A stretch of 64,000 bases of DNA, from the IMG/VR virus record IMGVR_UViG_3300010300_000011, positions 1-64,000 of that record. One strand, written 5' to 3'. The position numbers and the translations under genes are program-made. Under the pieces are notes generated by a model that worked only from the letters and a program-made list of their open reading frames with translations, did no database searches and was not told the DNA's origin. This DNA comes from a virus. Positions 9,420-32,811 of this stretch are shown in pieces (positions within the stretch are counted from its first letter, which is position 1; every line of letters begins with the position of its first letter).

Positions 9420-10700
9420 TCACTCGTTGAACGGGTTGCCCGGATCGTTGTAGAAGGTGAAGGTACCGGTCGTGTTGAGCGCGGTGCCTGCACTGTTCTG
9501 GAACAGGTTCGGCATGTCGATCGAAGCGCCCGACAGCAGGATGCTACCGATGCCCTTGATGTTGCCGAAGCCCATGCCGACTTCTTCCCACGCCTCGAAC
9601 TCGATGAAGCGACCGCGCTTGTCGATGAAGAAGCGCGTGCCCTCGAGCAGGAGGAAGCGACCGAGGAACTCGGGAGCCGGGAACGAGAACATCTGACCGG
9701 GCTGGACGATGTTCGGGTTGTCGCGGACCGTGGTGACGAAGGTGTACCCACCGACAGTGGTGTACTTGTAACCGTCACGCGTGATCTCGCTGGTGATCTC
9801 GAGGCCAGCCTCGGTATCAGACCATGCGATCGTGTCAGTCCAGTCGACCTCGTGCAGGAGGAAGACACGGCCCTTCATCTCGCGAGCGGGCTGGACCTTC
9901 ATGAGGTCACGCAGCACGTTGCGGTCGAACTCCGTAGCCGTGGAGGTCAGGAAGTTCGAGAAGACCGCGTTCGCCGGGTTGTAGTTCGGGTGCGTGGCGT
10001 CGAAGTCCGCATCCCAACCGTGCGTGGCCGGAGCGCCGGCACTCGGGCTCAGGGCACCACCGTCACCGACAGCACCGGAGGTACCGGCGTTAGCGACGTT
10101 ACGGGTGTAGATGTAGGAGGCGAAGGAGTACTTCGAGTTGAAGTTCTTGCCAGTCGCCTGGGCCATATCGTCACCCTCGTGGGTGACGGTCCCGCGATCG
10201 ACCAGGGTGTTCATGCGACGGCGGGTCGCGAGGAACACAGCAGTCCGGACGTGATCCATGAAGATCTTGTCCTCTTGCTCCTGGATGTCCTTGACGGTGT
10301 TCTGCTCGAGAACCTTCGTCAGGGGCATGCGGTAGGAGCGAAGTTCGGACTCGCTCTTCTGGAACTTGTCGGAGCTGATCGTGGTGAAGCGGATCTCGTA
10401 CCGCTTCGCCTCGATGTAGGTCTTCGACGGCTCGCCACGCATGTTGATCTGCATGGCCAGCGAATCGGGCTCGATGTCGTCGATGTACGACAGGCCCTCA
10501 TCGGTCGTGTTGCGGGTGAGCTCTGCGGTGGTGACTACCTGCGGGGGAAGCACACGACGAGCGAAGCTGTTTTCACGGAGCTTGTCCTGGATGTAGGAGC
10601 CCGTGACCTCAGCGGTCTTCTCGAGTGCGTCTCCGCCACGGTTGATCGCCTCACCGAAGAGAGAGTTGAACTCATCCGCGTTAAGCTGGAAATCGCTCAT
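9420..10700 (-). CDS. Putative major capsid protein
   Basis: The protein has 426 residues. An N-terminal helical arm (residues 1-45) contains ALEKTAEVTG, an instance of the Lys-x-Ala motif at residues 26-31 where prohead processing could remove about 30 residues. The body has an early basic/extended segment (FARRVLPPQ), a long helix with conserved-looking ESELRSYRMPLTKVLEQ, then a central RRMNTLVDRG region and beta-rich C-terminal half ending FTFYNDPGNPFNE. Length and position suit a major capsid protein: it is downstream of terminase, protease and scaffold-like genes and followed by a strong terminator. The sense leader has no Shine-Dalgarno sequence. Fold assignment to the HK97 type is inference. 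Confidence 0.7.
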   Translation of the reverse strand: MSDFQLNADEFNSLFGEAINRGGDALEKTAEVTGSYIQDKLRENSFARRVLPPQVVTTAELTRNTTDEGLSYIDDIEPDSLAMQINMRGEPSKTYIEAKRYEIRFTTISSDKFQKSESELRSYRMPLTKVLEQNTVKDIQEQEDKIFMDHVRTAVFLATRRRMNTLVDRGTVTHEGDDMAQATGKNFNSKYSFASYIYTRNVANAGTSGAVGDGGALSPSAGAPATHGWDADFDATHPNYNPANAVFSNFLTSTATEFDRNVLRDLMKVQPAREMKGRVFLLHEVDWTDTIAWSDTEAGLEITSEITRDGYKYTTVGGYTFVTTVRDNPNIVQPGQMFSFPAPEFLGRFLLLEGTRFFIDKRGRFIEFEAWEEVGMGFGNIKGIGSILLSGASIDMPNLFQNSAGTALNTTGTFTFYNDPGNPFNE

Positions 10701-12833: not shown

Positions 12834-14207
12834 TCAGATTGCGGTTGCCAGGAATGGCATCCAGTTGGGAACCGAGCTCGATGCTCGGGGTACAGTGAAA
12901 GCTGCGTCTACGCCGTTTCGCTGCAACGCGAAGCGGATGATCGGGTCTCTCTCCTGTAGCGCAGCAAACTTCTCCAAGTCTATCTGACGCAGCAGGTTAC
13001 GGTACCGATCGTGCCCGTAGGCAGACGCAGTTTTTACTAGGGCGAAATGAGAGAGCTGGCTCGCGGTGCGCCTGGTGAAGTACGGATCGAACATCGACCG
13101 CTTCTCCAGATGCGGCTCCAAAGCCATTACCAGTGTGCGGTTAGGAGAAGCCAGCGGCAACGGATCTGAGATTTGAGTCTCTCCAGCCACTTTCTCGTAC
13201 TCGTCATTCGTCAGATAGATCCCTAACGACACGCAAGCGCGCAGGGCTTCCTGTGCTCCAGCGTTGGCCAGTTTCTCGAGTACACCGGCCGGGAGCGGCT
13301 TAATGTATGTGAGGTCCTGGTGGGCTGACTTTTTCACGAAGTCGACCAGGCGGGGGTCGGTATCCGACTTCTTGGCAGGAACTGACTTAGCCACAGGCTC
13401 CATCGGCATGTCCTTCCGTATCTCGGACTTCTTGGACAGCGAAGCGCTGGCTACTTTGCGGATCGACCACGCGCTGCGATCGGCCGGTGTGAGCACCCGG
13501 GAGATATCGAAGAAGCGCGGGAAATCGTTGTACGCGTAAACACGGCGACCATCAGGGAGCATCCTCCCCAGCCAGTTTTTTAGGTGGTCGCAGTAGTCGG
13601 CGCGCTGCTTAGCCGGGTTGCCGCAGATGCTGCAACGGTCGTAAGGCAGCTTAGCGCCCATTGACCACGGGACCGGTGTACCGTCGTCAATCATCTTGAC
13701 GACGTCAGGCGCGTGCTTTGTGCGGACGAACACAATCAGCTCGACCCGCTTCATCTTGTCGTTGTATGCGCTGGCGATCACATCGCCGATCGACTTCGCA
13801 GGGTCTTTGTTCTCGTGGAACTTGTAGACGTGCGCGTAACGCGGGAACGTGTGCTCGCCGTACGCTTCTTTGGGCGGGATGACGATGTTCGGGTACTTCT
13901 TCCGAACGCGATCATTGATGTAGCGTGCGATGTCGCTAGGCGGATCCATAGCCTTGAGGCTCCACTCCGGGAATGCGTCCCCGTTGCGGTTATGGCCCCA
14001 AGTCTCGCACGCACCTAACGCGTTCAACAGGACGTAGCGCCCGTCTTGGCGCGGCTTCAGCTGCTCAGCTACACGCAGTAGCGACTCAGGTGTTGAGTCA
14101 GCAGATGCGATCTTGTCGAACGTCGAGCCGTGCACAAGGCTGTAGTCAGGGCCCCAATCGTGGTAGCCGCCTACATCGAACGTCTTGCCTGAGGTTGCGA
14201 AGCTCAC
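12834..14207 (-). CDS. Prohead maturation protease-like protein
   Basis: The protein has 457 residues and a GTG start overlapping the previous stop. Residues 73-80 read NRNGDAFP, matching the Asn-x-Asn-Gly signature of gp21-like prohead proteases. A candidate catalytic histidine follows (H126 in RYAHVYKF, or H131) and a candidate serine is S182 in PWSMGAKL. Directly after that serine is a Cys-rich knot (C192, C195, C206, H209) that could bind zinc. Residues 220-457 are a less conserved extension with seven Lys-x-Ala sites, such as VLEKLANAG and LVKTASAY, suggesting self-cleavage. It lies between terminase and scaffold-like genes. Protease assignment is from motif reading. The exact catalytic set needs alignment. 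Confidence 0.7.
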   Translation of the reverse strand: MSFATSGKTFDVGGYHDWGPDYSLVHGSTFDKIASADSTPESLLRVAEQLKPRQDGRYVLLNALGACETWGHNRNGDAFPEWSLKAMDPPSDIARYINDRVRKKYPNIVIPPKEAYGEHTFPRYAHVYKFHENKDPAKSIGDVIASAYNDKMKRVELIVFVRTKHAPDVVKMIDDGTPVPWSMGAKLPYDRCSICGNPAKQRADYCDHLKNWLGRMLPDGRRVYAYNDFPRFFDISRVLTPADRSAWSIRKVASASLSKKSEIRKDMPMEPVAKSVPAKKSDTDPRLVDFVKKSAHQDLTYIKPLPAGVLEKLANAGAQEALRACVSLGIYLTNDEYEKVAGETQISDPLPLASPNRTLVMALEPHLEKRSMFDPYFTRRTASQLSHFALVKTASAYGHDRYRNLLRQIDLEKFAALQERDPIIRFALQRNGVDAAFTVPRASSSVPNWMPFLATAI

Positions 14208-16473: not shown

Positions 16474-18252
16474 TTAGGGCAGGTTGGGCAGCAGGGTGGT
16501 TGTGAGCTCGCCGTAGTACTGCATACAAGCCGCCTCAGCGTACGCCAGGCTGTGGAATGCGTCGTCCGGGACCTCGTGGTCGTATTTGTAGGTGTTCCGC
16601 CGCTCGTCGAACTCGATGTAGATACCGGTGAAATCAGACACAAACGGCTTCAGGTCCATGAAGTTGAAGAAGCGCGTCTTGCCAGTTCTGATCTTGTCGA
16701 CAATCAGCTCGATCATCTGGTTGCGGTCGATCGAGTAGCGCTCAGCGTCAGGGCGCCACTTAGCCAGGAGGCCCTGCTGGACGTACTGCATCTGCATCAG
16801 CAGCCGCTCAGCGCCGTACCAGTTCCACCCCAACTCGTCGACCAGTCGGGCGTTCTGAGCCGCACCAAAGCCCCAGTCAGCTCCGCACCAGCGCACGTTG
16901 CACTGGGTCATGATCTCGTTGAGCGCTCCTACCTGCTTAGAGAGGTTCACTTCTGTACCAGTGAACTTCTTCATGTAGAGAACGTGGAACACGCCTTGTT
17001 TGTCACGGTGACCAATTGTGATCACGGTGTACGACGGGTTGTCTCCCTCTCCTGAGCCGTAGTCAATGCCGGCAAATACCGGGACGCCGCGATTGGCTAT
17101 TTCGCGGATAGCACGAAACTGGCTCATCTCCCGCTCTTCGCACGCATTCCGCATGACGCTTTCGGTCAGCACTAGCTGACCCTCGTCATACGGCAAGCCC
17201 AGCACCTCATTGAAGTACCGACGCGCGCTGTACTCTTCGCGCTTGGCCTTGACCTTGGCGTGGCTTTGGAACGGTACGATCAGCTGCGGGATGCGGAAGC
17301 CCCAGCGATGGTCTAAGTAGCTCGGCTGGCTGGGAACCCACTTGCCGTTTCGCGGTTCGATCTCTTTTCGACAGCGCGTGCAGCGGTAAGCATCGTCCGC
17401 AACGATCTCGTCATCTGGATAGTTCCAGTGATTACATGCGCTGCACTTGATCAGCCACTCGAACTGGCTGGTTCTAGTCCAAGTTCGGCTGATTAGGTTG
17501 GATGTTGTCTTCGGTGTTCCAGCGTACAGCCGGAACTTGCGATGGTCCTTGGCGTGGGATTGGCACTCCTCGAGAACCTCAATCGCGTCGGAGACAATGT
17601 CCTGAATCTCGTCTACCAACAGGTGCTCGCAGGTGATGCCTCGAGCGTTGTCAGCGGACAGGTAGCACGACCGGAAGTTGAAAAACGCACCGTTGGTGAA
17701 CTCACGGGACGAGACTTGCCACAGCGTCTTGCTGGGCTGCACCCACAGGCCCATGTCCGGTGAGTCCTCACACATTGCGCGGAATCGCTGCGTAGAGAAC
17801 ACGGACACCTGATCCCATCGAGGCGCGATGTATAGCGTTTTGTACGCTTTGTACATCGCAGCCAACGAGATGGACTTCGCTGCCTGGGACGTGGACTTCT
17901 CAACCTGTCGTCCAGCCAGCATCAGCACGTTACGACACCCCATTGGGTACTGCTTGCGCAGGTCATAGACGCCGTACAGGTACTCTCTGCCTGTGAAGTC
18001 AAACGGCTCGCGGTCGACAGTCAAGAAGTTCTTGACGAAGCCAGAGACAGTAGAAACCGCCTTAGGTCCGCCCAGGTCTTTCTTGACTCGGTGAGCCGCG
18101 ACGTGCTGGCTCTCCTGAGCAATCTGCTCTGCCTGCTGGTTGTACTTCGACCAATCGATCGCCTCGAGGTCGTTGTTGGCCAGCGTGACCGCCACGTCAC
18201 GCAGCAGCTGTGCATGTGTAGTGGGCGGAGCAGTTCCTAGAAGTTCAGCCAA
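16474..18252 (-). CDS. terL: Terminase large subunit
   Basis: This 592-residue packaging ATPase-nuclease starts at a TTG overlapping the previous gene, preceded by a Gly-rich AAGGGGG that may serve as ribosome binding site. The ATPase has a Walker A-like GRQVEKST at 114-121, in which Glu replaces the usual Gly before Lys, Walker B LLVDEIQD at 211-218, and the coupling motif YAGTP at 243-247. A zinc ribbon (C270, C273, C291, C294) follows. The RNase H-like nuclease begins with FAGIDYGSGEGD (D397), continues with GADWGFG, and ends with an acidic VPDDAF. It docks on the portal and cuts DNA during packaging. The family call is secure; the symbol is by function. Confidence 0.9.
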   Translation of the reverse strand: MAELLGTAPPTTHAQLLRDVAVTLANNDLEAIDWSKYNQQAEQIAQESQHVAAHRVKKDLGGPKAVSTVSGFVKNFLTVDREPFDFTGREYLYGVYDLRKQYPMGCRNVLMLAGRQVEKSTSQAAKSISLAAMYKAYKTLYIAPRWDQVSVFSTQRFRAMCEDSPDMGLWVQPSKTLWQVSSREFTNGAFFNFRSCYLSADNARGITCEHLLVDEIQDIVSDAIEVLEECQSHAKDHRKFRLYAGTPKTTSNLISRTWTRTSQFEWLIKCSACNHWNYPDDEIVADDAYRCTRCRKEIEPRNGKWVPSQPSYLDHRWGFRIPQLIVPFQSHAKVKAKREEYSARRYFNEVLGLPYDEGQLVLTESVMRNACEEREMSQFRAIREIANRGVPVFAGIDYGSGEGDNPSYTVITIGHRDKQGVFHVLYMKKFTGTEVNLSKQVGALNEIMTQCNVRWCGADWGFGAAQNARLVDELGWNWYGAERLLMQMQYVQQGLLAKWRPDAERYSIDRNQMIELIVDKIRTGKTRFFNFMDLKPFVSDFTGIYIEFDERRNTYKYDHEVPDDAFHSLAYAEAACMQYYGELTTTLLPNLP

Positions 18253-19324: not shown

Positions 19325-21007
19325 TTACCCGCTGTAAGTAATGTTCTTCAGTTCCGTCAGGTCGCGGATAACAGCGTCTAGTGCAAACAGCGCTGTACGG
19401 ATCGGAGACGAGTCAACCTCAAGGCCAACGCGTGCTGCAATCAGTAACTGAGCAACGGCGCGACGAGCGTCTCGCATCGTGTCCAGCGACTCCACGAACT
19501 TCAGGACGTTTTGCTCGTTCAAGAAGTTGAGGCTGAGCACTGCGTCTACTGTGCGTCGGCTCAGCTCTTCTGCGCTTTCAGCACACTTGATGAGCTGCTG
19601 GCGCTCAGCTTGGTAGATAGCCTGCTCAACCAGAGCTGCCGTTTTCCAGAGAGCTGCCTTCTCTTCGTTCGAGAGAACCGGCATGCCTTCGATCGGCTTA
19701 ACCTCCGGAGCGGGCAGCTCTACGTAGCTGACTACGCCATCAGCCATCAGCCGGCTAGCGGCCTCTTTTGCGAAGGCATCTTCATACGTCCGTCCGAGGT
19801 AGTCAGCCAACTCACGCAGTCTGACTGTCTCACCGTCAGGCATGCGGGCGTAGCCGCCTACCTTTGTGATCGTTTGGGCTGCCGGCACGTCGCTGGTTGT
19901 GGGCTGGTAGTCCACAGGCTGTGCCTTGTCTGCGAGCTTCAAGAAGATCCAGTCGTCGTTCAGCAGGATGGTGTCCACATCCCCTTCAACACGCTGGAAC
20001 GGTTGCTCGCTAGCAGTCTTGCGGAACTTGATTGACTTATCGCCACGCAGTTCAGCGATGTAGTCATTGCCGGCGGAACCGCGAATGTTCACGGGCTCGG
20101 TGACGATGGTGTCCGCCGATTTGACGAACACAAAGACGCCGGTACCGCTCCAGTCGTCCTCCTCAAGCTCCGGCACGCCGTCGTACGCAGAGCCCCACAG
20201 GGGACGATCAGTAAACGCGGCAGTTTTGTCGAGGCCCACAAACGCCTGGACACCTTCACGCAGGTCGTCCAAGTCGAAGTAGTAGACGTTGTGCGCTACG
20301 AAGCCGGCTCGCTCACCATCAGCGGTAGCGACCTTGTATATGCCCGGTTCCTGGATCAGCTGAGCAGGGTTGACCTCTACATCGACTACGGCTGCTGCTG
20401 CTCGCGTGTCTTCAACGACAGGCTCAGTGGCGTTTGCTGCGTACTTGCGCAGCACGTCCTCGAAAGCGCGGCTGGTCGTCAGACCCCACTCCAGCTGGTT
20501 CGGCTTGAGGTACGCCATAGCCTGCTTGACTTGATCGTCAGCGTAGCTAAGCGATGCGTAAGCGTACTTGCCGTCAAACGGAGGCAACGTGAGATACGCA
20601 ATCGATGCGTCGGACGACTCACCTGAACGGCCCGGCTTCACCGGCTCCCCGATCGGGTCGTCACGCTGCAGCGCTTCCTCCAGCGCAGGACGTGTGAGCG
20701 GCAGCACGTCCTCTTTGCTAATGAACACGTCTAGCGGTGCTAGGCGGCAATCAGAGATCACGACAGGGATGATTACCTTGTCGTCAATGTTGATCGCACC
20801 GACACCGTGCCCACTATCAGAGTCCGTCTTGTTCATGCGGACGTTGATGTGGTAGTCGGCCAAGTACGGCTGCGTTTGGTGCAGCACGTCCATGACCTCC
20901 TCAGGCCAGTTCTTTGAGTCACGTGACAGCCGTGAGGATGCCGACTTCTCGAAGTCGCCGAAGCTCGGGGCCTCAGCAAACAGCGCTTGTCCCCGGAGCT
21001 TAGGCAT
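19325..21007 (-). CDS. Large motif-rich structural protein
   Basis: The protein has 560 residues. The opening MPKLRGQALFAEAPSFGDFE is followed by KSASSRLSRDSKNWPEEV and a beta-rich domain (INIDDKVIIPVVISDCRLAP). I recall this N-terminal pattern from other large-phage structural regions but without a function. About ten Lys-x-Ala sites occur, including FEKSAS, LRKYAA, LDKTAA, FRKTAS, FAKEAA and LWKTAA. The C-terminal 100 residues are helical. A Shine-Dalgarno-like AGGTGA lies 8 bases before the ATG. It is encoded between the spike-like and terminase genes. A virion role is likely; which one is unknown. Confidence 0.5.
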   Translation of the reverse strand: MPKLRGQALFAEAPSFGDFEKSASSRLSRDSKNWPEEVMDVLHQTQPYLADYHINVRMNKTDSDSGHGVGAINIDDKVIIPVVISDCRLAPLDVFISKEDVLPLTRPALEEALQRDDPIGEPVKPGRSGESSDASIAYLTLPPFDGKYAYASLSYADDQVKQAMAYLKPNQLEWGLTTSRAFEDVLRKYAANATEPVVEDTRAAAAVVDVEVNPAQLIQEPGIYKVATADGERAGFVAHNVYYFDLDDLREGVQAFVGLDKTAAFTDRPLWGSAYDGVPELEEDDWSGTGVFVFVKSADTIVTEPVNIRGSAGNDYIAELRGDKSIKFRKTASEQPFQRVEGDVDTILLNDDWIFLKLADKAQPVDYQPTTSDVPAAQTITKVGGYARMPDGETVRLRELADYLGRTYEDAFAKEAASRLMADGVVSYVELPAPEVKPIEGMPVLSNEEKAALWKTAALVEQAIYQAERQQLIKCAESAEELSRRTVDAVLSLNFLNEQNVLKFVESLDTMRDARRAVAQLLIAARVGLEVDSSPIRTALFALDAVIRDLTELKNITYSG

Positions 21008-22814: not shown

Positions 22815-23266
22815 CAGATCTGCTTGACGCTCTCCTTCAGCGACTCAATGATCTTCTCGCGAATCTCAGGACGCCGCGTCTCGATGATGCGAATCAGGCG
22901 CTGCACCCAGTCTTTGAGTGAGATCCTCAAGCCCTTTTGTTGAGGCAGGGCAATCGTCTTCTGCGCAAAGCGGCGAACGATTTCGCGCTCCTCACCAGTG
23001 GCCGGAGCACCTTTGTAGTCGCGGCGGAACTGCTGTGCTTCCAAGTCTTGCCGACGGCCTGCGCGGTCGATCTCAGTCGTTGTGTACTGATGCTCAGCAA
23101 TCTTGGCGAGCTCAGACACGTAGCTCTCCATAGCTCCTCGTTTCACAAATCCTCCTGGTATAGTTCGGCTCCCGGGCAGCACCGCACGATTGAATCCAGT
23201 TCCGGCCGTCAACTTGACGTTTGCCAGCTTTTCAAGTTGAGCCAAGAGTGCTTCGTATGCGTTCAT
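22814..23266 (-). CDS. Small protein with two EKLA/AKIA tags
   Basis: The protein has 150 residues and starts MNAYEALLAQLEKLANVKLT, with a second element at about residues 50-60 (YVSELAKIAEHQ). The C-terminal half is basic and helical (KDWVQRLIRIIETRRPEIRE). It overlaps the end of the RNA polymerase gene by 4 bases and shares one base with the spike-like gene, so it is translated with them. Its tags match the set found on other small virion-type proteins. Function is unknown. Being adjacent to the polymerase, it could accompany it into the capsid, but that is speculation. Confidence 0.45.
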   Translation of the reverse strand: MNAYEALLAQLEKLANVKLTAGTGFNRAVLPGSRTIPGGFVKRGAMESYVSELAKIAEHQYTTTEIDRAGRRQDLEAQQFRRDYKGAPATGEEREIVRRFAQKTIALPQQKGLRISLKDWVQRLIRIIETRRPEIREKIIESLKESVKQI

Positions 23267-26200
23267 ATCTTGACAGGGCGCTTGACAGAGTCGATGGAGC
23301 GCAGATTAGTCAGCGCCAGTTGAGAGATGGGATGACCTTTTTGCAGATCAGTCTTCAACCCCATGGTGGGGGCTCGCTCGAGCGTCTTCTGGAGCTTTTC
23401 GTGGATTAGCGATCCGACAAAGTCGGTGCTGTAGCTAGGCGCGGCCTTGATGCCTGCGACCAGCGGCTCGTATTCGATCTCTTTGCCCCGCATCTTGCGA
23501 ATCTTGGCGTTGTACTCTTCGATCTGATTAGTAAGCACAAAGTCGCCGGACACGACACCGAACTTGGACCCATCGTTGGCTTCAGTGACCTTCGCCCGGT
23601 TGGTCAAAGGCGTGATCGCAGTCTCATAGATCTTGCGGCGAATCTTACTGCCTGACGCGCTGTAGTTCTTATCCAGCTCATCAATCAGGTAGTTCTGCAC
23701 GCGCGGCAGATCTCCTGTGAGGTCCAGCAGCTCTTTCGGCTCGACGATGCCGTGGCGGCTGAGTTGATCGCCTGCTTTGACCCGCTGGCCTCGCGTCACC
23801 TTGGTTGCGAGCTCTTGCGGGATGAAATGTCTAGTGCCCGACACGAAGACATAGTCGCCCCCGGTAGGACCGGGCTCGATCTTGTTAACTACACCGTCGT
23901 TCTGAGCCAGAACTGCTTTACCTCTAATGGTTTGCGGCATTTCCAGGATCTGCTTGATCCGGTCAAAGCCAAGGTTCGACTCTGAGCCAACCGCACCACC
24001 TGTGTGGAACGCGCGCAACGTCACCTGCGTAGCACGCTCGCCAATAGTCTGCCCAGCAAGCGCACCAATGTGGAAACCAATGCGAGGTGACTTACCACTC
24101 TCGTCGAGGCCAAAGCATTTCTGGCAGATGCCGCCAACTGCCTTACACGTCATAGGCGAACGCACCTTGATGCGCTTCTCGCCCTTCTGCCGCAAGCGGC
24201 GTGCAAGCTCTTGCGTGATGATTTGATTGCGGTACGCACCCTCAGCACCGTAGCGGTCGGAGATCTCCTTGTCGTCAAGAGACATCTCGATACCCTGCAT
24301 CGTTCCGCAGTCATCCGCTTTGATGGTCATCTCGACGTTCGAGTTGACCAGCAGGCGGCTTAAGTAGCCTGTATCAGCAACAGACAGACCTTTGTCGATC
24401 AGACCCTTACGTGCACCAGGCGTTGTGCTGAGGTAGGCGCCAAGGTCGTGGCCTTCTGCGTAGGACTTGCCGACGATGATCGGTACGACCTGGTTTTTGT
24501 GGTCACGGGTGCCTACGGGGCTAAGCACCATCTGCTGGATCTGGCCTTTCTTGCCCAGCGCGCCAGACAGCGGACCAGCCTCGACGAACCGGTTGTTGAT
24601 TGCAGCGTCTAGCAACAAGCTGAGCTCCGCCACGGCCTCGTTAGCCGCTACGTCGTACCCGACGGTCTTGCTGCGGCGCTTAGCCTTCCTAATCACCGCA
24701 TCCCGCTTCTTCGTGTCGATTTCCAGGTCGCGGAGACTGACGCTGAAGCCGACTTCGGTGACGTAGTGGTTGCCGAGGTTCTTGACCTCTGTGATTACAC
24801 GCGCTGCTTCGCCGGACGAGAGCTCGCGCCCCGCACGCTCCAGATCGGCGTCCATGAGCTTACGTGTCGTTGAGCGGTACGCAGGCCGCACAGCTTGCGG
24901 GAAAGTCTGCGCGTAGATCCACTGGCCGATGCAGTGCACCTGCCCGCCCACGCGTGCCGCCTGGTTCGCCTTGACCTTCTTGTCGCGGTAGAGCTGGAAC
25001 AGGCTTTCCCAGTTACTCACTGACGGCGTGTTGCCTCTGACCTTTGGGGTGGTCATCAGGTACACACCCAGCGCAGTCTCCTTGGTCGGCGAATGTACGA
25101 GACTGTGGTCCTGCGGGCTGAACAGGTTTTTGCTAGGCAGCAGCCGGTCAAACGCCTCTTTGCGCGCCTCTTCCGACACCGGCACATGGATACCCGCCGT
25201 GTCGCCGTCGAAGTCCATGTTGAAGCCACCCACAATCAGCGGGTTGACCTCAACGGCCTTGCCTTGGATCAGTCGCGGCTTAAACGCTTGGATCGAGAAC
25301 TTGTGCAGCGACGGGGCGCGGTTCATCAGCACAGGCCGATGCTCCATCTCAATCTCGAGCGCCTTGACGGCCAGCGGATCGTTCTCTTCGATCGCTTTGC
25401 GTGCTTCGATAGGTGTCTTGCCCATCGACTGCAGCCGCTTGACCACAAACGGCTTGTACACCCGAGCTGCCATCTCTTGAGGCACACCGACCTCATCGAG
25501 ATGCATCTTCGGGTTCGGAATTACGGTTGACCGCCCCGTAAGATCCTGCGCCCTACCGGACACTTTCGATTGGAAGAACCCATACTTCGGAGCTGTCTTC
25601 CCTTTGATCTGTGAGACGAAACCTTGAAAGTTGCGTGCGCGAGTAAGTGGGTCACTCGTTCCGACCACACCTCCCACGGCTCCCGTGAGTGCTTGGTAGA
25701 GCGGACGTAGGTTCTCCTCATCAACCCCGAGACGGCGCAGCTCGCGAATCTGGTTGTTGACGAGCATGACTTCCCGGTATCCGTGCACTGCGTCAGCAAC
25801 ACTCAGCGTCCCATCAGGCTGCACCGCAATCTGACGGAACTTGGGCGGAATCACGGGGAGCTGTTTGTTTACATAGGCGTCGGCAGGCTTGATGCCTGAC
25901 ACTTTCAACGCCTTCAAGTACCGCAGCCGCTTGTGCGCCTTATCCAGCCCAGTGCCGCGCTTACCAGCAGCGGCTTTCTCGGTGATCTGAATCTCTTTCT
26001 CTACGTCAACGTTATCCAGGATGCGGCGGACACCGTCAGCCCCAGTGATGTTGCCCTCGGCTTCTTCAGTGATCTGACCGTCGGGCGTCACGAACAGCTG
26101 ACGATCGATGATCTGCTGCAGCTGCTTCTTAGTCTTGAAGGCGCCGACTGCTGCGACAGCATCGATCATCAACGGGTGGACAACCGGAGTTTCGAGGGTG

Positions 26201-29200
26201 ATGTGGTTCCAGCGGTTTCCACCAATGCCGCCTGTCAGGCCAGGATCAAACAGCCCGCCCTTCTCAGGGTTCAGGTTCTTCGCGTTGACTACCAGCGGCT
26301 TCTTCAGCTCGCCGCTCGACATCGACAGGATCTCGTTGTCAGTCATAGGTGTAGCTTTGATAGTGCTACCTGACTGCTCGAGATTGATGCCAGCTGCGAG
26401 CAACATGGCAATGAACTTCTCTTCTACAAACGGCGTCTGCGGAGGAGGGGTCGGCTGCCCGGTTTGTACCGCGCGCCAGTACTCGTCGTTGCGCTGACTC
26501 TTGAGCCCGAACGCGTCGTGCAAGAACGCGGTGGCATCGCCGGACAGCAACGAGAACGTGTCTAGCGCGCCAATACGCTGCGCACTGGCGTCACCGCCTT
26601 TGGTCGGCTGTTGGTCAACGGAGTAACGCTCACCAGTAGCGGCGCGTGCAGAGATCTTCTTCGATACCTGGTGCTTCAGCTTGAACCAGGTCATGTTCCC
26701 GACGAGCACGTCATCGAGCTGGTCGCCCGTGGTGGGATCAACGATCGTCTCCTCGTCGCTGATTCCAGCGTCTGCGAGCTCCTTCTTGAGCTTCTGCAGT
26801 GTGCCGGCAGTGCCCTTCTCGTTGAAGTTGTCTGCGTAGTAGACCTTGCCCGTCTTCTCTGCGAGCTTGCCAGCTGCTGCTTCAAACAGCTGACCAGTAT
26901 TGACACGCCCCGGCACGCCAGCCGGGTTCATTAGCAGGTCAATGGTCTGGTCATCCTGACCTTTGGGCATTTCGTTGTCCGGAAGGATGCAGTTTCCCGA
27001 CCAATGACATTTACCGTTTCGTCGGACATATACCAAACCACCAGGGACTGTCACGCAGAACACCTCACCGCTGTACTCAGTGGTGTATCGATCTTTGTTC
27101 TGGAACCCCTGCTCAACGCGATCACGGTACAGAGATAAGCACCACTGATCGCGATACTCGTTGCGACCAGCAACAAATCGAATGACCCCGCTACCTCCTG
27201 TGAGAACCCAGGCGCGGTGCAAGTCTACTGCAAGCTGTTCTGAGGTTATCGAAATACACATAGCTTGGTGCTTCGGCCGTTTCGCGCCGTCGCCCAAGTT
27301 GAACGCGTCTACAAGTCGTGTGAGCGCTGCCTGAGACGTATGAAACCAATGCTCAGGTATGTACTTCTCCCACGCATTACCCAGGCTGTGCAGATACTCG
27401 TACACAGCTTTGTTGGCGAACCGGAAATAGCCGTGCCCTCGAGATTTATCGGTGTAGTGGTACTTCCAGGTGATCCCTAACTTGGTGAGCAAGGCCCCGA
27501 TACGTTTACAGTTGTCGGGATTAGCTACCTGGCTTTGGGCGATATGAATGCGATACTGACGCACTTGTGCGACGCCGTACCGACCACCGGCTAAGCAGCC
27601 TTCAGCCAGATACCATCCCAGCAGCTCGGCGAAGTCTTCAGTATTGAACTTACGAAGACAGTCACGCCCTTTAGCTCTTGCTGCTTTTGGTAGTACAAAC
27701 ACTGCGGCAGTGTGTTCAGGAAGCGAAGATTTAGCTGCGTACTGCAGGTACCGACGTCCCTTGACTTCATCAGCTCGCTGGAACTTGTATTCAGCGGTCT
27801 GACCGCGATAGTGCTCGATGCGGCTCCACACCCGATGGTCTGGCGTTACCAGATAGTCGAGGTGGTCGTTGGCCACTCCGTACATCGGCCCAGAGTAATC
27901 GAACCGATGAAGTGCTTCTGGTGTGACGAACTCAAGACGGCCGCCTATTTGCGCGCTAATCTTATCTGATAGCGTCAGCTCTGAAAACGGCTTCCAGCCA
28001 TTGGCAGTGAGAATATCTGTCTGATCGTCAAAGCAGGTCACGATGCCCTTAGATCCGTGGCGAGATGACAGCTTGTCACCGACCTGCATCTGCTCTTTGG
28101 TGTGGATGTAGACCTTGACAAATCCACGTGACTCCACAACGTCAACAACAGTGCCCTCATATGCACTGTCCCAGACTTCTGAGATGTCTACGAACTTCAA
28201 GCCCGCACTGCGGTGCAGCTTGCTGTAGTCGTACTCCGGGTGGTACTCCGCTTCCTGGATAGCGGGGATCAGCACAGTACCCGGAGGCACTGTTGCACCC
28301 TTTTTGACTATGCCGGACTCGGTGTAGAGGTCAGCAGGACAGTTGGCGACTTCAGTAGGGAAGGCAGCCAGGTATTTCTTACGCCCGACATGTACCTTCT
28401 TCTTGATCTGTACGCGGAACTCATACTTGTGCGTAGAGGTCAGCTTCTTGGCGCACGACTCAGAAATGACGATACCGTCCTCGAAGTTGTACCCCTTCCA
28501 GGCGGTGTACGCGACTTTGAGGTTCTTCCCCATAGCCAGCGAACCGTCTTTGGTGAAGTTGTTTCGCGCTACGTCCTGGCCAGCTTTGACACGGTCTCCT
28601 ACTTTGACGATCGGCTCGTCGTGCAAGTAGGTGTTTGAGTTCAGCGGATAGTTATGCCTAAGCGGCACTTTGTAGACGCGACCACGACTAGGTCGGATCT
28701 TGATGTAGTCGTCAGTGACCTCAGTCACCACACCGCCACGAGCCTCGCCAGTGCGGATGTCGACAGCCTTAGGCGTTAGCGCTGACCCAAACAGCTCCTC
28801 GTAGCCACCTCCTGCAAGCCGGTGCTGCACTAGAGGCTTGTCGGGGTCTACAAGCCCTACCGACTGTTCAACGTGCTTGTCCCCCATCAACACACGGTTC
28901 GCGTGGTTGTTGTTGAGGAATGGCACCATTGCCGTGGTGCTCGAGAAGAACGCGTCAGGCGACACGAAGATGTAGTCAACCTCGCTAGCCTTAACGTCAG
29001 CGATCTGGTTGCGCCGACGTGCGCGGACCGACTCGGGGTCTTTCGGCTTAGGTTTGCCATCAAAGCCCTTCTTGGGGTCCTCCGGCATGTTGCTGTACTG
29101 GTCAGGGAACGCAACGGTCGTACCGTCGAGGTCCTGAACAGACACCTCGGTGCGCTTACCTGTCGCTGCAACGTAGACAGGCACAAAGAGCGTCTGCCCT

Positions 29201-30429
29201 TTCTTGATAGCACCAAGCGAGAGGTGGTTGGTCACACCGACCTTATCGCCCTCAGGTGTATGCAGCGGGTCGAGCAGGCTGAAGTGCGACGGGTGTACGG
29301 TGCGCACGTCGTCAGTAATGGCGTGCGAGCTCGAGATGCCGCCGTCTCCGATGGTTGTGACCAAGGCATTGACCGAGGCCATGTCCAGCGGGTTGTTCTG
29401 GTCGCTGTAGCGCGTGAACTCCGACGTGGTGAAGAACTGGGTGACCGGCTCAGAGAACGTCATCGGCGGGATGACAGAGTCGATCGTCGGGTTCCGCATC
29501 AGCTCGAACTTGAGCTTGCGCTGAATGGCAGGAGCAGCGTTCTGGATCTTCTCAGGTACGAAGTCCTCGACTGAGTGGATCGATTTGAACGCCAGAGACT
29601 CTTTGTCGTCTGCCTGCGCTTCCTTGCGCGAAACAGCCAGCGCTTTCTTGACGCCTTCGTAGAACGCCGAGCGATCAATCTTGCTGACCGGCCGGCCTAC
29701 CGTCAGCTTGTTGACAGCAGGGTCCAGCGGCTTTGATTCCATGAACTCCCTGACGAGCCTCATCTGCTCGTCGAGTTCGTTGCTCTGCGCGTAGGGCCGC
29801 AGCTTCGACAACATACGCTCTACGTCTCTGCGCAGATCCGCAGCCTCGAAGTTAGTCGGGTAGAGCTCGTTCGTCAGCAACTGCCGGATCTCAGCATCGC
29901 GCATCCCCATGCAGCGCAGCACAGAGTAGATCGGCACATGGAAGCCGGAGCCGATACGCAGCCGGATTAGACCCGTATCCCGGTTAAGCAGGATTTTGAG
30001 CGTTCTCGACGCTGTGGTGTTGAGGAACACCTCAACCTGGTTGTCGTTAGCATCTGACGTGTAGATACCAGGACGCAGACGAAACTGGCTGACGACTTGG
30101 ACTTCCTTGCCCTTTACCAGGTAGCTGCCGTTGGCCGTAAGGTGCGGTATTAGCAAGATCGGATGCCGGTTTTTCTCGTCCAGCACCTTGCCACTCTCGT
30201 TCTTGATCTTGACGTCAGCTACCAGGACAGCATTGAGCGTGCCCTCTTTGAGCTTCACGTCTCGCTGTCGCTTGACGTCTAGCAGTACGTCAGCACCCAC
30301 TTTGCGCCAACGGAAGTTGGACGCAGTAAGCGTGCTCTTGTCCCCGATCACCGGGAACTGAGCTTTGACGATGTCCTCGCTTTTAGCCAGGAGCTCCGTG
30401 AAGCGCTCTAAGTGCGCGGACTCAATCAT
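23263..30429 (-). CDS. Fused RNA polymerase beta-beta-prime single polypeptide, intein-containing
   Basis: The gene encodes 2388 residues, about 2040 after intein removal, against roughly 2750 for the E. coli beta and beta-prime subunits together. Beta signatures in order are SYLVKGKEVQVVSQFRLRPG (near 125), YSDQNNPLDM (near 342), HPSHFSLLDPLHTPEG (near 380), GYNFEDGIVISE (near 650) and GDKLSSRHGSKG (near 788). After the intein come MNPAGVPGRVNTGQ and QRIGALDTFSLL. Beta-prime begins near 1390 (LNPEKGGLFDPG), lacks the usual N-terminal zinc finger, and has RPVLMNRAPSLHK, the metal site NMDFDGD (Asp 1739, 1741, 1743), bridge helix GARKGLIDKGLSVADTGYLS (near 2003), zinc cysteines in ADDCGT and GGICQKCFG, and trigger-loop region TLRAFHTGG. 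It overlaps the upstream gene by 8 bases. It is clearly of the cellular polymerase family; packaging in the virion is inference. Confidence 0.95.
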   Translation of the reverse strand: MIESAHLERFTELLAKSEDIVKAQFPVIGDKSTLTASNFRWRKVGADVLLDVKRQRDVKLKEGTLNAVLVADVKIKNESGKVLDEKNRHPILLIPHLTANGSYLVKGKEVQVVSQFRLRPGIYTSDANDNQVEVFLNTTASRTLKILLNRDTGLIRLRIGSGFHVPIYSVLRCMGMRDAEIRQLLTNELYPTNFEAADLRRDVERMLSKLRPYAQSNELDEQMRLVREFMESKPLDPAVNKLTVGRPVSKIDRSAFYEGVKKALAVSRKEAQADDKESLAFKSIHSVEDFVPEKIQNAAPAIQRKLKFELMRNPTIDSVIPPMTFSEPVTQFFTTSEFTRYSDQNNPLDMASVNALVTTIGDGGISSSHAITDDVRTVHPSHFSLLDPLHTPEGDKVGVTNHLSLGAIKKGQTLFVPVYVAATGKRTEVSVQDLDGTTVAFPDQYSNMPEDPKKGFDGKPKPKDPESVRARRRNQIADVKASEVDYIFVSPDAFFSSTTAMVPFLNNNHANRVLMGDKHVEQSVGLVDPDKPLVQHRLAGGGYEELFGSALTPKAVDIRTGEARGGVVTEVTDDYIKIRPSRGRVYKVPLRHNYPLNSNTYLHDEPIVKVGDRVKAGQDVARNNFTKDGSLAMGKNLKVAYTAWKGYNFEDGIVISESCAKKLTSTHKYEFRVQIKKKVHVGRKKYLAAFPTEVANCPADLYTESGIVKKGATVPPGTVLIPAIQEAEYHPEYDYSKLHRSAGLKFVDISEVWDSAYEGTVVDVVESRGFVKVYIHTKEQMQVGDKLSSRHGSKGIVTCFDDQTDILTANGWKPFSELTLSDKISAQIGGRLEFVTPEALHRFDYSGPMYGVANDHLDYLVTPDHRVWSRIEHYRGQTAEYKFQRADEVKGRRYLQYAAKSSLPEHTAAVFVLPKAARAKGRDCLRKFNTEDFAELLGWYLAEGCLAGGRYGVAQVRQYRIHIAQSQVANPDNCKRIGALLTKLGITWKYHYTDKSRGHGYFRFANKAVYEYLHSLGNAWEKYIPEHWFHTSQAALTRLVDAFNLGDGAKRPKHQAMCISITSEQLAVDLHRAWVLTGGSGVIRFVAGRNEYRDQWCLSLYRDRVEQGFQNKDRYTTEYSGEVFCVTVPGGLVYVRRNGKCHWSGNCILPDNEMPKGQDDQTIDLLMNPAGVPGRVNTGQLFEAAAGKLAEKTGKVYYADNFNEKGTAGTLQKLKKELADAGISDEETIVDPTTGDQLDDVLVGNMTWFKLKHQVSKKISARAATGERYSVDQQPTKGGDASAQRIGALDTFSLLSGDATAFLHDAFGLKSQRNDEYWRAVQTGQPTPPPQTPFVEEKFIAMLLAAGINLEQSGSTIKATPMTDNEILSMSSGELKKPLVVNAKNLNPEKGGLFDPGLTGGIGGNRWNHITLETPVVHPLMIDAVAAVGAFKTKKQLQQIIDRQLFVTPDGQITEEAEGNITGADGVRRILDNVDVEKEIQITEKAAAGKRGTGLDKAHKRLRYLKALKVSGIKPADAYVNKQLPVIPPKFRQIAVQPDGTLSVADAVHGYREVMLVNNQIRELRRLGVDEENLRPLYQALTGAVGGVVGTSDPLTRARNFQGFVSQIKGKTAPKYGFFQSKVSGRAQDLTGRSTVIPNPKMHLDEVGVPQEMAARVYKPFVVKRLQSMGKTPIEARKAIEENDPLAVKALEIEMEHRPVLMNRAPSLHKFSIQAFKPRLIQGKAVEVNPLIVGGFNMDFDGDTAGIHVPVSEEARKEAFDRLLPSKNLFSPQDHSLVHSPTKETALGVYLMTTPKVRGNTPSVSNWESLFQLYRDKKVKANQAARVGGQVHCIGQWIYAQTFPQAVRPAYRSTTRKLMDADLERAGRELSSGEAARVITEVKNLGNHYVTEVGFSVSLRDLEIDTKKRDAVIRKAKRRSKTVGYDVAANEAVAELSLLLDAAINNRFVEAGPLSGALGKKGQIQQMVLSPVGTRDHKNQVVPIIVGKSYAEGHDLGAYLSTTPGARKGLIDKGLSVADTGYLSRLLVNSNVEMTIKADDCGTMQGIEMSLDDKEISDRYGAEGAYRNQIITQELARRLRQKGEKRIKVRSPMTCKAVGGICQKCFGLDESGKSPRIGFHIGALAGQTIGERATQVTLRAFHTGGAVGSESNLGFDRIKQILEMPQTIRGKAVLAQNDGVVNKIEPGPTGGDYVFVSGTRHFIPQELATKVTRGQRVKAGDQLSRHGIVEPKELLDLTGDLPRVQNYLIDELDKNYSASGSKIRRKIYETAITPLTNRAKVTEANDGSKFGVVSGDFVLTNQIEEYNAKIRKMRGKEIEYEPLVAGIKAAPSYSTDFVGSLIHEKLQKTLERAPTMGLKTDLQKGHPISQLALTNLRSIDSVKRPVKI
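26992..28035 (-). mobile_element. Intein with LAGLIDADG-type homing endonuclease in the beta part of the RNA polymerase
   Basis: This in-frame 1044-bp element encodes 348 residues (host numbering 799-1146). It starts with the nucleophile Cys (CFDDQTDILTANGWK), has a block B YLVTPDHRVW with the Thr-x-x-His arrangement, a first LAGLIDADG-like helix (ELLGWYLAEGC), a second one (VDAFNLGDGAKR), and block F (VTVPGGLVYVRRNGKCHWSG) ending in Asn, followed by Cys as first downstream extein residue. The penultimate residue is Gly instead of the common His. Excision joins GSKGIVT to CILPDNE and restores the conserved beta sequence. Both endonuclease motifs keep acidic residues, so it may still home. Confidence 0.9.
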
Positions 30430-30853
30430 CAGCGTCGTCCGACAACCCAGCGAAAAGCTCGTTCAGCTCTTCGTCATCTTCGCTGTTCAGGACGCGCCGT
30501 GCTTCTGCCTGGTCATCTCCTTCGCGCAGCTCTTGCTGGGACTTGTAGAGCGGAAGGTTATCGCCCTTCTCGAAGTAGATGACGCGGATGAAGTAGTCAC
30601 CGGCAGCTGAGGTCTTCTCAGTAGCGCTGATGACTTCGTAGCGCGCCGTATCGTTGTACAGCACCTGCCATCGACGGCAGTCAATGTCCTTGTTCATGTC
30701 GAGCAGCTCGATACGTCGAGCACGCGACACGTCCATCTCCTCAGAGTCAATACGCAGGAGCGCAGCAGTGAGCTTGGGCATAGCTCCTTGCTGCTTCAGT
30801 CGTTGTGCAACGCCTTGCTGCACTCGGTCTGTGAGGGTCCTGCGTCGGGTCAT
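30422..30853 (-). CDS. Small protein between portal and RNA polymerase
   Basis: The protein has 143 residues and starts MTRRRTLTDRVQQGVAQRLK with a basic N-terminus, a beta-rich middle (RYEVISATEKTSAAGDYFIR) and a very acidic C-terminus (NSEDDEELNELFAGLSDDAD). Its start overlaps the portal stop (ATGA) and its end overlaps the polymerase start by 8 bases, so translation of the three genes is coupled. It might be a head-tail adaptor or a partner of the polymerase. I recognise no family. Confidence 0.5.
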   Translation of the reverse strand: MTRRRTLTDRVQQGVAQRLKQQGAMPKLTAALLRIDSEEMDVSRARRIELLDMNKDIDCRRWQVLYNDTARYEVISATEKTSAAGDYFIRVIYFEKGDNLPLYKSQQELREGDDQAEARRVLNSEDDEELNELFAGLSDDADD

Positions 30854-32811
30854 ACCGGACTGTTCTCTCTGCGCGGCGGCTTCTGCTCAGGCAGCGGCTT
30901 GATGTCGTTCACCTGATCTTGGATCAGCCTCTGACGCCGCCTGATGGCAGCAGCTAGCGCCGGGTTGGTCTGCTGTAGGACGGCAATCTCATGCTCGATC
31001 ATGTTCGGCGGGATCGTTTTGAGCATGTTGTCCGACATAGTGTCGAGCATCTGAGGATCAGCCTGCCAAGACGTGTCCCCAGGCTGCTGACCTTGTTGCG
31101 GAGCGCCAGCCGCAGCGGACTGATCAGGAGCACCACTAGGTGCTCCATTAGGCGTCCCGCCTTGGTAGGGGTCTCCACCTCCAGTTTGGGCGTTCGGATC
31201 CCCTTTTGGTGCGTACTCAGCGATGTAGCCTTGCTCCCGAGCTTCGCGGATATCCGCCTCGAGTGCCTTCTGTTGGGCCACTTGAGCCTTTGCAGCGTAC
31301 TCAGCCTGGATCACGCTGGCCTGTCCTTGGACCTTGGCAGCCTGCAGCTGCTGACGCTCCATGACTGCCAAGCGCTCGATCTCTTCCTTCTGCTTGCGCG
31401 TGTTCTCGCGCTCGAAGTCGAAGCCGAGCTCTTCGATCGTGGTCTGATCGGACAGCGTGTTCGTTTGCCGCAGCGACAGCGCGATCTGCTTCTGCTGCGC
31501 GTCGTCCGCCATCTTGAAGTCACGGTGACGCAGGTGAATCGGCGGCATGCCGCACCAGCGCGTCAAGCGCGGGATGACGAAGTCCTTGAGGAAGTTATCG
31601 AGCTGCTCAATCTTGTTCAGGAAGATGTTCTCCAGAACACGCAGCGAGATTGACGAGCCAGTCCAATTGAGTCCGCCGTACACAAACTCCTGGGGCGTGT
31701 CCAGACCACCAGTGATCTGCTCCCGCACCATCGTCATGTCGTTGTGGACATTGAGCGCCTGCGCGTCACCACGGATGTTCAGCATCTGCGCAGGGAACGG
31801 CATGGTGTAGATACCGTTCTGATCACGACGCCACTTCTGGATGATGTTCATCATCTTGTCTGACCAGTCCCCGAGGTCCGCAGCCATGTGCGGGCTGGGG
31901 CCGCCAGCGGGTGCTGAGGGCGTGAGGACAGTCAGCGGCAAAACGTGATCAAGCGCAATCGCTTCTTGTGCCCGGCGGTACGTCTGGAAGAGCCAAGCGT
32001 CTTTGAAGACCGGGAGAAGCGGCGGGAGCCCGAAAGCGTCGTCCTCCATAGAGACGCTCGGGTTCTTGAAGTGGTAGATGTTGTCGGGATCTAGCTTGAC
32101 GTTCTTCTTCTCCTTCGTCGCCTTGAGGATCGACATCGGAGTTTCAAGGATTAGATCGCGGTTGGAGTTGGCGTCCTGAACACGCTTACGCAGCCACTGA
32201 GGGATGCGGTAGATGTACGTCGAGCTGTCGCTGAACGGGTTGTACCGGACGTCGATGTACTTCGGGTTCCAGCGAATGATCTTGGTTCGCTTCCGGTTCT
32301 TGACCGGCCGATCGTAGACCTCGAAGTCTTTGTTCTGCGTCTTGCACTCAGGGCAGTGACCCTCGAATCGGTTGTCGCGGTACTTCCAGTCCTTGTGCGT
32401 CCGCGCCATGAACTTGTGCCCGCAGTGCTTACAAATCAGGTGCCGGTCGAACGGTCGGTAGATGGACGCAAAGGCGTTGCCGTAAACCTCGTTGTCCAGC
32501 AGCAGCTTGTACTCCGCCTCGCGCAGCTTGATGTTGCGCTCGAGCAGCTCACGCCACGCTCTAGTTGAGTACGAGCTCTCAGACTCGTAGATCAGCGGTG
32601 TGATGACATACGAGCACTTCTTGTTGATCGTCGGAGCGATCTCGGAGTGCGTCGTGTAGAGGTACAAGCACCACCGAAACATCTCCTTGACGGAGTTCGG
32701 GATGTAGCTGGTGCTCGGGTCGAAGAACGGGTGAGCGTAGTTGCCTAGCCCGCGTCCTCTGCTGCCAGAGCCTGACCGGTTGCCAAGTGAGTTACTGGAT
32801 TCGAGGCTCAT
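30850..32811 (-). CDS. Portal protein with inserted zinc ribbon
   Basis: This 653-residue protein should form the dodecameric DNA channel at one capsid vertex and bind the terminase. The N-terminal part (YTTHSEIAPTINKKCSYV) and the wing/stem part, with a bound-to-break GGLDTPQEFVYGGLNWTGSS followed by a long stem helix (LENIFLNKIEQLDNFLKDFV), match large-phage portals. Residues 127-156 hold four cysteines (C127, C130, C153, C156) as CKHC and CPEC, an inserted zinc ribbon. The C-terminal 200 residues are a long Gln/Ala/Glu coiled region and a Pro/Gln/Gly-rich tail. It lacks a Shine-Dalgarno sequence. Family call is confident from pattern and position. Confidence 0.8.
   Translation of the reverse strand: MSLESSNSLGNRSGSGSRGRGLGNYAHPFFDPSTSYIPNSVKEMFRWCLYLYTTHSEIAPTINKKCSYVITPLIYESESSYSTRAWRELLERNIKLREAEYKLLLDNEVYGNAFASIYRPFDRHLICKHCGHKFMARTHKDWKYRDNRFEGHCPECKTQNKDFEVYDRPVKNRKRTKIIRWNPKYIDVRYNPFSDSSTYIYRIPQWLRKRVQDANSNRDLILETPMSILKATKEKKNVKLDPDNIYHFKNPSVSMEDDAFGLPPLLPVFKDAWLFQTYRRAQEAIALDHVLPLTVLTPSAPAGGPSPHMAADLGDWSDKMMNIIQKWRRDQNGIYTMPFPAQMLNIRGDAQALNVHNDMTMVREQITGGLDTPQEFVYGGLNWTGSSISLRVLENIFLNKIEQLDNFLKDFVIPRLTRWCGMPPIHLRHRDFKMADDAQQKQIALSLRQTNTLSDQTTIEELGFDFERENTRKQKEEIERLAVMERQQLQAAKVQGQASVIQAEYAAKAQVAQQKALEADIREAREQGYIAEYAPKGDPNAQTGGGDPYQGGTPNGAPSGAPDQSAAAGAPQQGQQPGDTSWQADPQMLDTMSDNMLKTIPPNMIEHEIAVLQQTNPALAAAIRRRQRLIQDQVNDIKPLPEQKPPRRENSPV

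Follow-up and report, generated by a model that had tools for sequence, protein, structure and literature searches.

The window analysed here, positions 1-64,000 of the 77,176-base virus record IMGVR_UViG_3300010300_000011, carries on its minus strand (23263-30429) a gene in which the two large subunits of a bacterial-type RNA polymerase, beta and beta', are joined in one chain. The gene is a single ATG-started frame of 2388 amino acids with no internal stop, interrupted by an intein that is flanked by GSKGIVT on one side and CILPD on the other. No N bases occur in the 64 kb, and 27,164 bases including the polymerase gene recur with zero differences in two other IMG/VR contigs (L003 and L005). 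One of these belongs to G001, a longer record of the same phage (183,184 bases), which is identical to the first bases of the window at 5,379 of 5,379 positions. Since the same DNA recurs unchanged in other contigs and in G001, an assembly join in the polymerase frame is unlikely.

The domains of both subunits were found along the chain. Pfam models for Rpb2 domains 3 and 6, then Rpb1 domains 2 and 5, matched over their cut-offs, with Rpb1 domains 1 (39.4 vs 39.7 bits) and 3 (24.4 vs 28.9) slightly under. Among NCBIfam models, rpoC scored 489 bits and rpoB 328, with archaeal A' and B at 99-118, while the bacterial equivalog cut-offs of 963.5 (rpoC) and 801 (rpoB) were not reached. Alignment to E. 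coli revealed a nearly linker-free seam, as the last beta residue falls at extein position 1007 and beta' R31 at 1020. The N-terminal zinc finger of beta' is deleted, with E. coli beta' residues 70 and 88 in a gap and residues 60 and 100 at extein 1049 and 1057; this deletion in the phages was judged against the full E. coli sequence, the bacterial rows of the table being trimmed to the matched stretch. At the second beta' zinc site, all four cysteines occur in the window and in 7/8 phage relatives compared (absent in L207). An AlphaFold model of residues 1-798 (m4d7ca76fc1e0) had a mean predicted local distance difference test score (pLDDT) of 91.6, and its first PDB match by E-value was 8urw_C, from a cyanobacterial RNA polymerase complex, with a query template-modelling score (TMq) of 0.80. 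The model of residues 1147-2346 (m14d3f807ee2b; mean pLDDT 88.9) had 50 PDB matches listed, all RNA polymerase entries at TMq 0.69-0.74, and in a viral structure library the top two entries were unnamed chains, 1127 and 1192 residues long, followed by giant-virus subunits. The best PHROG matches of the two halves, phrog_24349 and phrog_25354, are families of unknown function that can probably now be named.

The catalytic residues are largely those of E. coli. Kept in the window are beta' R425, D460/462/464, the bridge-helix residues R780 and K781 and the trigger-loop residues Q929 and H936, together with beta E813, D814, K1065, K1073, R1106, H1237 and K1242; the metal-site motif reads NMDFDGD instead of the usual NADFDGD, which most of the fused relatives carry. 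It is near certain that the product is a DNA-dependent RNA polymerase of the double-psi barrel type. A catalytically dead relic with a structural or regulatory role could be suspected from a number of replacements. Beta Q513, H526, R529 and S531, which we take to be rifampicin-pocket residues, are replaced, the clamp-helix residues R275, R278 and E295, presumably sigma contacts, are not conserved, and of the beta' residues near the active site Q504, T786, K789, T790, R339 and R346 are changed. Against such a relic, 9/9 phage rows retain the catalytic residues listed above save at few positions, namely K781 (Arg in L207 and L190), K1073 (a gap in L006), H1237 (Lys in L190) and K1242 (Asn in L190), and this reading is very improbable.

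A preliminary description of this DNA, made from the letters alone, had proposed that a phage encodes a complete polymerase of the cellular type as one chain, about 2040 residues long after splicing. The frame, domains and residues bear this out, and the extein is indeed 2040 residues. The DFDGD site, bridge helix, trigger loop and four-cysteine zinc site that it named were all located by the E. coli alignment, the absence of the N-terminal zinc finger was confirmed by the gap, and the structure prediction that it suggested gave confident models of both halves matching RNA polymerase entries. It had also considered a stop, frameshift or assembly join, of which neither the open frame nor the identical DNA in other contigs gives any sign.

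When residues 799-1150 were searched alone, mycobacteriophage methyltransferase genes were matched (E 2e-12), as expected of an insert, and Pfam LAGLIDADG_3 matched weakly under its cut-off (E 0.031). Relatives of the polymerase have a large insert at the same place, at other sites, or none. The intein-sized inserts are mostly of about 330-570 amino acids, with one of 217, and occupy six to nine sites across the relatives, though an intein nature is not proved for all. In the numbering of locus L009 the sites lie at about 381, 514, 610, 778, 804, 917, 1385, 1672 and 1803-1843, some uncertain by tens of residues, and one of them is the catalytic DFDGD. Other interruptions were also observed. 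A single in-frame TGA at L017:12161-12163, after which the same frame resumes at once, is found in L037 and L211 as well (L017 and L211 being the same contig), and L187:12044-12046 is alike; these may reflect readthrough, recoding or decay. L044:11699-11701 is an in-frame TAA, where the near relative L048 has AAG at the equivalent place.

The fused polymerase is widespread in viral contigs, as a phage RNA polymerase related to the cellular enzymes. Scanning viral contigs with the window protein yielded 56 loci; a second scan, for which 13 fused relatives were aligned as the query, yielded 379, and the best 80 of these were retained. Both scans together contain 114 distinct protein sets, where distinct means non-identical and close relatives are counted separately. 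Full single-frame fusions make up 82 of the 114. A split form, in which one frame holds beta with the N-terminal part of beta' (beta-beta'N) and a separate frame holds the rest (beta'C), accounts for 15. Ten are single frames covering a part, eight of them ended by a contig edge and the other two (L053, L057) from an unfused group with a Gp23-type capsid; the last seven comprise two sets with one in-frame TGA, one partial split (L020) and four unfused. The preliminary description had held that a beta-beta' fusion is not a usual phage gene, which the 82 distinct fusions contradict for the present lineage. No report of a full phage beta-beta' fusion of such a kind was found in searches of main texts within one open-access library.

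The split form is represented in culture by Salmonella phage Arash (OQ632216), in which Gp206 comprises beta and beta'N and Gp216 beta'C; Gp206 has no large insert and the portal gene lies upstream. In the split form beta' is cut at E. coli beta' residues ~549-574. Because beta and beta'N are joined in fused and split forms alike, the beta-beta'N fusion is taken as ancestral to the phage lineage. In an approximately unbiased (AU) test with 26 rows, the fused rows as one clade were not rejected (p 0.316), so that the test gives no support to a later origin of the beta' cut (first fused, then split) over an earlier one. Vibrio phage D181, also of the split form and with no host given in its genome record, has a further break (L059:5932-11446), in which beta is interrupted near L009 residue 490 and a homing endonuclease gene lies between the pieces, possibly a snapshot of how such genes fragment.

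The origin of the lineage was approached by an unrooted tree over 1847 columns, in which 34 phage rows (24 fused, 10 split) were set beside 13 bacterial rows, assigned by their record names to seven phyla. All 34 phage rows fell on one side, parted from the bacterial rows by a long branch with a support of 100 in the Shimodaira-Hasegawa-like approximate likelihood ratio test (SH-aLRT), and the split form was one clade (SH-aLRT 95). When each half was analysed by itself under a simpler model (26 rows), phages and bacteria were parted with a support of 100 in both trees. In the main tree the phages attach at the bacterial base, beside the split between Dojkabacteria and the other bacteria, a position to which long branches tend to be drawn. 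On these alignments, the fused and split polymerases are a phage lineage distinct from the bacteria sampled. Recent acquisition of an rpoB-rpoC pair from a bacterium, or a contig of host origin, would accord with bacterial-type scores far exceeding archaeal ones, but it is made hardly credible by the long branch between the 34 phage and 13 bacterial rows, on which both halves agree, by phage structural genes that flank the polymerase on both sides, and by the cellular loci themselves, in which beta and beta' lie in different frames in 80/80 of the best loci kept, out of at least 593 relatives in the cellular scan. The preliminary description had proposed trees of both halves as a check and had thought of a host contig; both halves group in one phage lineage outside the 13 sampled bacteria of seven phyla, and the flanking structural genes speak against a host contig. 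As a whole it was partly supported; absent from it were the location next to the portal, the sister form with its split beta', the sigma factors, which lie beyond the window, and the cultured relative with the enzyme in its particles.

Two candidates concerning the origin were discarded. An origin in Bacteroidota, hinted at by the top cellular matches, is probably an artefact arising from the choice of peptide patterns (WKGYNFE among them). OR844998 (L061), taken up as an unfused phage relative, holds ordinary bacterial rpoB and rpoC by score (1808 and 1884 bits) and was used as a bacterial row. It is one of two wastewater records labelled as phage with seemingly ordinary bacterial rpoB and rpoC, the other being OR846602, judged by its two-gene layout only.

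Phage polymerases whose beta and beta' are still alignable with the cellular ones have been described before, as the mReC polymerases of Caudovirales, which have two subunits and a Gp23-type capsid, and which were mined from IMG/VR with a required NADxDGD motif (PMC7481178). That the window gene belongs to this published clade, its fusion unremarked, is conceivable, as IMG/VR was the source mined (PMC7481178) and most fused relatives carry the required NADFDGD. However, the NADxDGD motif is absent in the window, whose NMDFDGD fails the published filter, and the mReC capsid family PF07068 was found in 0/20 fused or split family records as opposed to 6/6 of the unfused loci L052-L057, and also in Rhizobium phage Y65. 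In a beta' tree that included unfused phage polymerases, the fused family stood on one side with a branch support of 100 and five rows of Gp23-capsid phages came together (90) apart from it, with the bacteria cohering at a support of 64 only. Terminase PF05876 was over its cut-off in 16/28 records, and all 16 are of the fused/split family. Membership in the mReC clade is therefore improbable, and the single-chain family, free of PF07068, most likely forms a lineage of its own, separate from mReC, as judged against Gp23-capsid proxies in place of the original mReC sequences. The same tree placed Rhizobium phage Y65, Vibrio phage 1.031.O and Cobetia phage Carin-5 together (97) on long branches, apart from the fused family. 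In Y65 (MN988525, L063) and 1.031.O (MG592415, L248) a beta' gene is present and a beta gene was not found with the family's beta profile, while in Carin-5 (L247:2541-9366) an annotated sigma gene directly precedes two adjacent genes for large polymerase subunits.

The polymerase gene sits within a morphogenesis block, between portal and terminase (Table 1). This arrangement recurs in the family, with a portal upstream on the same strand in 59/62 single-frame loci that have at least 6 kb upstream, and, among 65 with at least 9 kb downstream, a gene of the Gp218 type in 59 and a terminase in 51. Split-form neighbour counts, given below, leave out the interrupted fusions L017 and L187.

Table 1. 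Features of the polymerase gene and of its neighbours in the window
Feature	Position	Strand	Basis or remark
Single-chain beta-beta' RNA polymerase gene	23263..30429	-	2388 amino acids with intein, 2040 in extein
Beta part before intein (residues 1-798)	28036..30429	-	Pfam Rpb2_3, Rpb2_6; structure model
Intein, 348 amino acids	26992..28035	-	residues 799-1146; Cys first, Asn last, Cys next in extein
C-terminal beta part (extein 799-1007)	26365..26991	-	alignment: last E. coli beta residue at extein 1007
Beta' part (extein ~1019-2040)	23266..26331	-	corresponds to E. coli beta' from about residue 30; Pfam Rpb1 domains; structure model
Catalytic DFDGD (extein 1391)	25201..25215	-	alignment to E. 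coli
Four-cysteine beta' zinc site	24115..24309	-	extein C1693, C1747, C1754, C1757 = E. coli C814, C888, C895, C898
Trigger-loop segment, His aligned to E. coli H936	24001..24051	-	alignment
Portal protein gene, upstream, same direction	30850..32811	-	Arash portal Gp204 matches here in phmmer, E 6e-64
Small gene between portal and polymerase	30422..30853	-	position; match in L004, L006
Conserved downstream gene	19325..21007	-	profile matches Arash open reading frame holding particle protein Gp218
Terminase large subunit	16474..18252	-	phrog_675 E 8e-66, PF05876 E 3e-11
Probable head maturation protease (weak)	12834..14207	-	phrog_18299 E 2e-5; stronger match phrog_2774, unknown function
Probable major capsid protein (weak)	9420..10700	-	phrog_2522 E 8e-6; no Pfam capsid match

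Sigma-like genes accompany the polymerase. With the sigma factor Gp10 of Arash as query (E <=0.01), 13 of 16 family records were matched, Arash itself included; the remaining three, of 77 kb (the window's own), 66 kb and 153 kb, gave no match. One matching record, G047, was left out of the count, as it matches only through its RpoD-like sigma, so that Gp10-type proteins are present in 11/15 family records other than Arash (12/16 with it). Among 10 phage records with other multisubunit polymerases, Carin-5 included, none was matched. Eight Gp10-type proteins were aligned. That of the window's phage, at G001:162358-162807(-), was found with an E of 4e-13 and matches Pfam sigma region 3 (29.1 bits, cut-off 25.3) as well as phrog_351, a sigma family. 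A second, RpoD-like sigma lies at ~G001:33483-34334(+), where the RpoD C-terminal model matches with an E of 7e-26. The Gp10-type sigma is common to fused and split forms; by sequence, a sigma gene is conserved alongside the polymerase, and the window polymerase probably uses its own phage's sigma. Near the Gp10-type gene of the window's phage, L262:14208-15941 encodes a carbohydrate esterase of the SASA family with a lectin-like domain, perhaps a tail protein. An alpha subunit (PF01193) was over the cut-off in 0/22 records, many of which are fragments, with one sub-threshold match in a 27-amino-acid frame with stops; the same model detected alpha in 13/14 control genomes.

The particle proteome of the cultured relative Arash has been published. 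Gp206 is the most detected protein, with 128 unique peptides and 3516 spectra; Gp216 has 1210 spectra in the same data and the sigma Gp10 467, against 877 for the portal and 1333 for the major capsid protein, and Gp218 is likewise in the table (PMC10585845). Its authors suggest early transcription by the particle polymerase, or else carry-over (PMC10585845). They call Gp206 'beta', and the words fused or fusion are absent from the main text (PMC10585845). The Arash helicase Gp217 had no match in the stretches of the window's phage examined. Virion presence is thus reported for the homologue Gp206/Gp216, and by analogy the enzyme of the window's phage may be packaged likewise.

Taken together, the fused gene, the sigma-like genes and the cultured relative suggest that the phage arrives in the cell with a transcription machine of its own. 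The reading preferred here, to which a probability of roughly two in three is given, is that the window enzyme would be an active virion RNA polymerase, single-chain and free of alpha, used with a sigma of the Gp10 family for early transcription. Under this proposal the gene would encode an active polymerase with beta and beta' in one polypeptide, from which the intein would splice itself out after translation. The chain of 2040 amino acids would then fold to a bacterial-type core in which alpha is not needed to bring beta and beta' together; assembly free of alpha is inferred because the halves are fused and no alpha gene was found in the records searched. As extrapolated from Arash, the chain would be packed into the virion with a sigma-like protein of the Gp10 family, and both would enter with the DNA and start early phage transcription without the host RNA polymerase. 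The beta-beta' fusion would date to the common ancestor of the lineage, one branch having later gained, or always kept, the beta' cut after the catalytic barrel.

Several observations weigh against this proposal, beginning with the altered neighbours of the active site and the unconserved clamp-helix positions listed above. The RpoD-like sigma (region 2) was over the Pfam cut-off in only 14/40 family records (9/22 and 5/18), one of the 14 genes having an internal stop, and promoter-like words upstream of this phage's genes were not above shuffles. Missing alpha is weak evidence, as many records are fragments. The split form has a portal upstream in 9/17 loci and a terminase downstream in the same direction in 0/9, two of the nine having it on the other strand. 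The spectra count rises with protein length, and the Arash particle list of 116 proteins has DNA primase, DNA ligase and ribonucleotide reductases (PMC10585845). Some carry-over into Arash particles is real, because primase and ligase are among the 116. Sigma factors, moreover, are also carried by phages without their own polymerase and are described as a common phage device (PMC13282480).

These points lend themselves to a different reading, namely a non-virion polymerase for middle or late genes, with its presence in Arash particles due to carry-over and the sigmas serving the host enzyme. Carry-over is named by the Arash authors themselves, with primase and ligase on their list (PMC10585845), sigma factors being so common a device fits as well (PMC13282480), and phiKZ-type phages are described as having separate virion and non-virion enzymes (PMC13282480), where one polymerase was followed here. 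But Gp206 has 3516 spectra against 1333 for the major capsid protein, without length correction, and 128 unique peptides (PMC10585845), most single-frame loci have the gene placed between portal and terminase, and the sigma common to fused and split forms is the very Gp10 type found in Arash particles. The non-virion reading is accordingly held to be unlikely, though it is the most serious of the competitors.

Relation of the putative virion enzyme to the known systems can be outlined as follows. Natural beta/beta' fusions, as modelled by NCBIfam NF007172 and NF011417, which we take to be those of Helicobacter and Wolbachia, share the beta-beta' order in one chain, but the window scores 514 and 451 bits against cut-offs of 5372 and 4632 for models of 2890 and 2839 positions. 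Arash Gp206 and Gp216 are homologous and of the same clade, with beta joined to beta'N and a portal upstream, and differ in that the part of beta' beyond the catalytic domain is encoded by a second gene, the two being published as subunits beta and beta' (PMC10585845). The crAss-like gp66, a single-chain virion polymerase described as extremely diverged (PMC7886860), and that of P23-45, lying within a tail tape protein (PMC10770324), are likewise single-chain phage virion polymerases, whereas in the window enzyme both subunits are recognisable domain by domain; it is near these enzymes in likely behaviour and much nearer the bacterial ones in sequence. Polymerases of the phiKZ/AR9 type are phage-borne relatives of beta and beta' without alpha, yet they consist of four or five chains with no sigma homologue recognisable by sequence (PMC7598289, PMC13282480), in contrast to one chain and sigma-like genes here.

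Beta' of the phiKZ type and of cyanobacteria is cut after the double-psi beta-barrel (DPBB) domain (PMC7598289), and the phiKZ-type cut is close to that of the split branch. A common cause of the two is possible. Because of this proximity the present family may be a bridge from the bacterial to the phiKZ type, as part of a broader and more tentative proposal, short of even odds, of a lineage of pre-joined holoenzymes, in which an alpha-free one-chain core would be packaged together with a dedicated Gp10 sigma and injected. Its enzyme would be a virion polymerase dependent on sigma, with one core chain in which the bacterial type can still be recognised.

A fused chain without a detected alpha gene constitutes a natural test of the need for alpha in assembly. 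Since Q513, H526, R529 and S531 are replaced, insensitivity to rifampicin is predicted, and the changes at the presumed clamp-helix contacts predict that sigma is bound at an interface different from that in bacteria. With the cultured relative Arash, some of this is testable now. The family also adds a second phage lineage that can be aligned when the origin of phage multisubunit polymerases is considered. In conclusion, if the proposal is true, a bacterial-type enzyme in the virion, with its own sigma, would make early transcription in this lineage free of the host polymerase.

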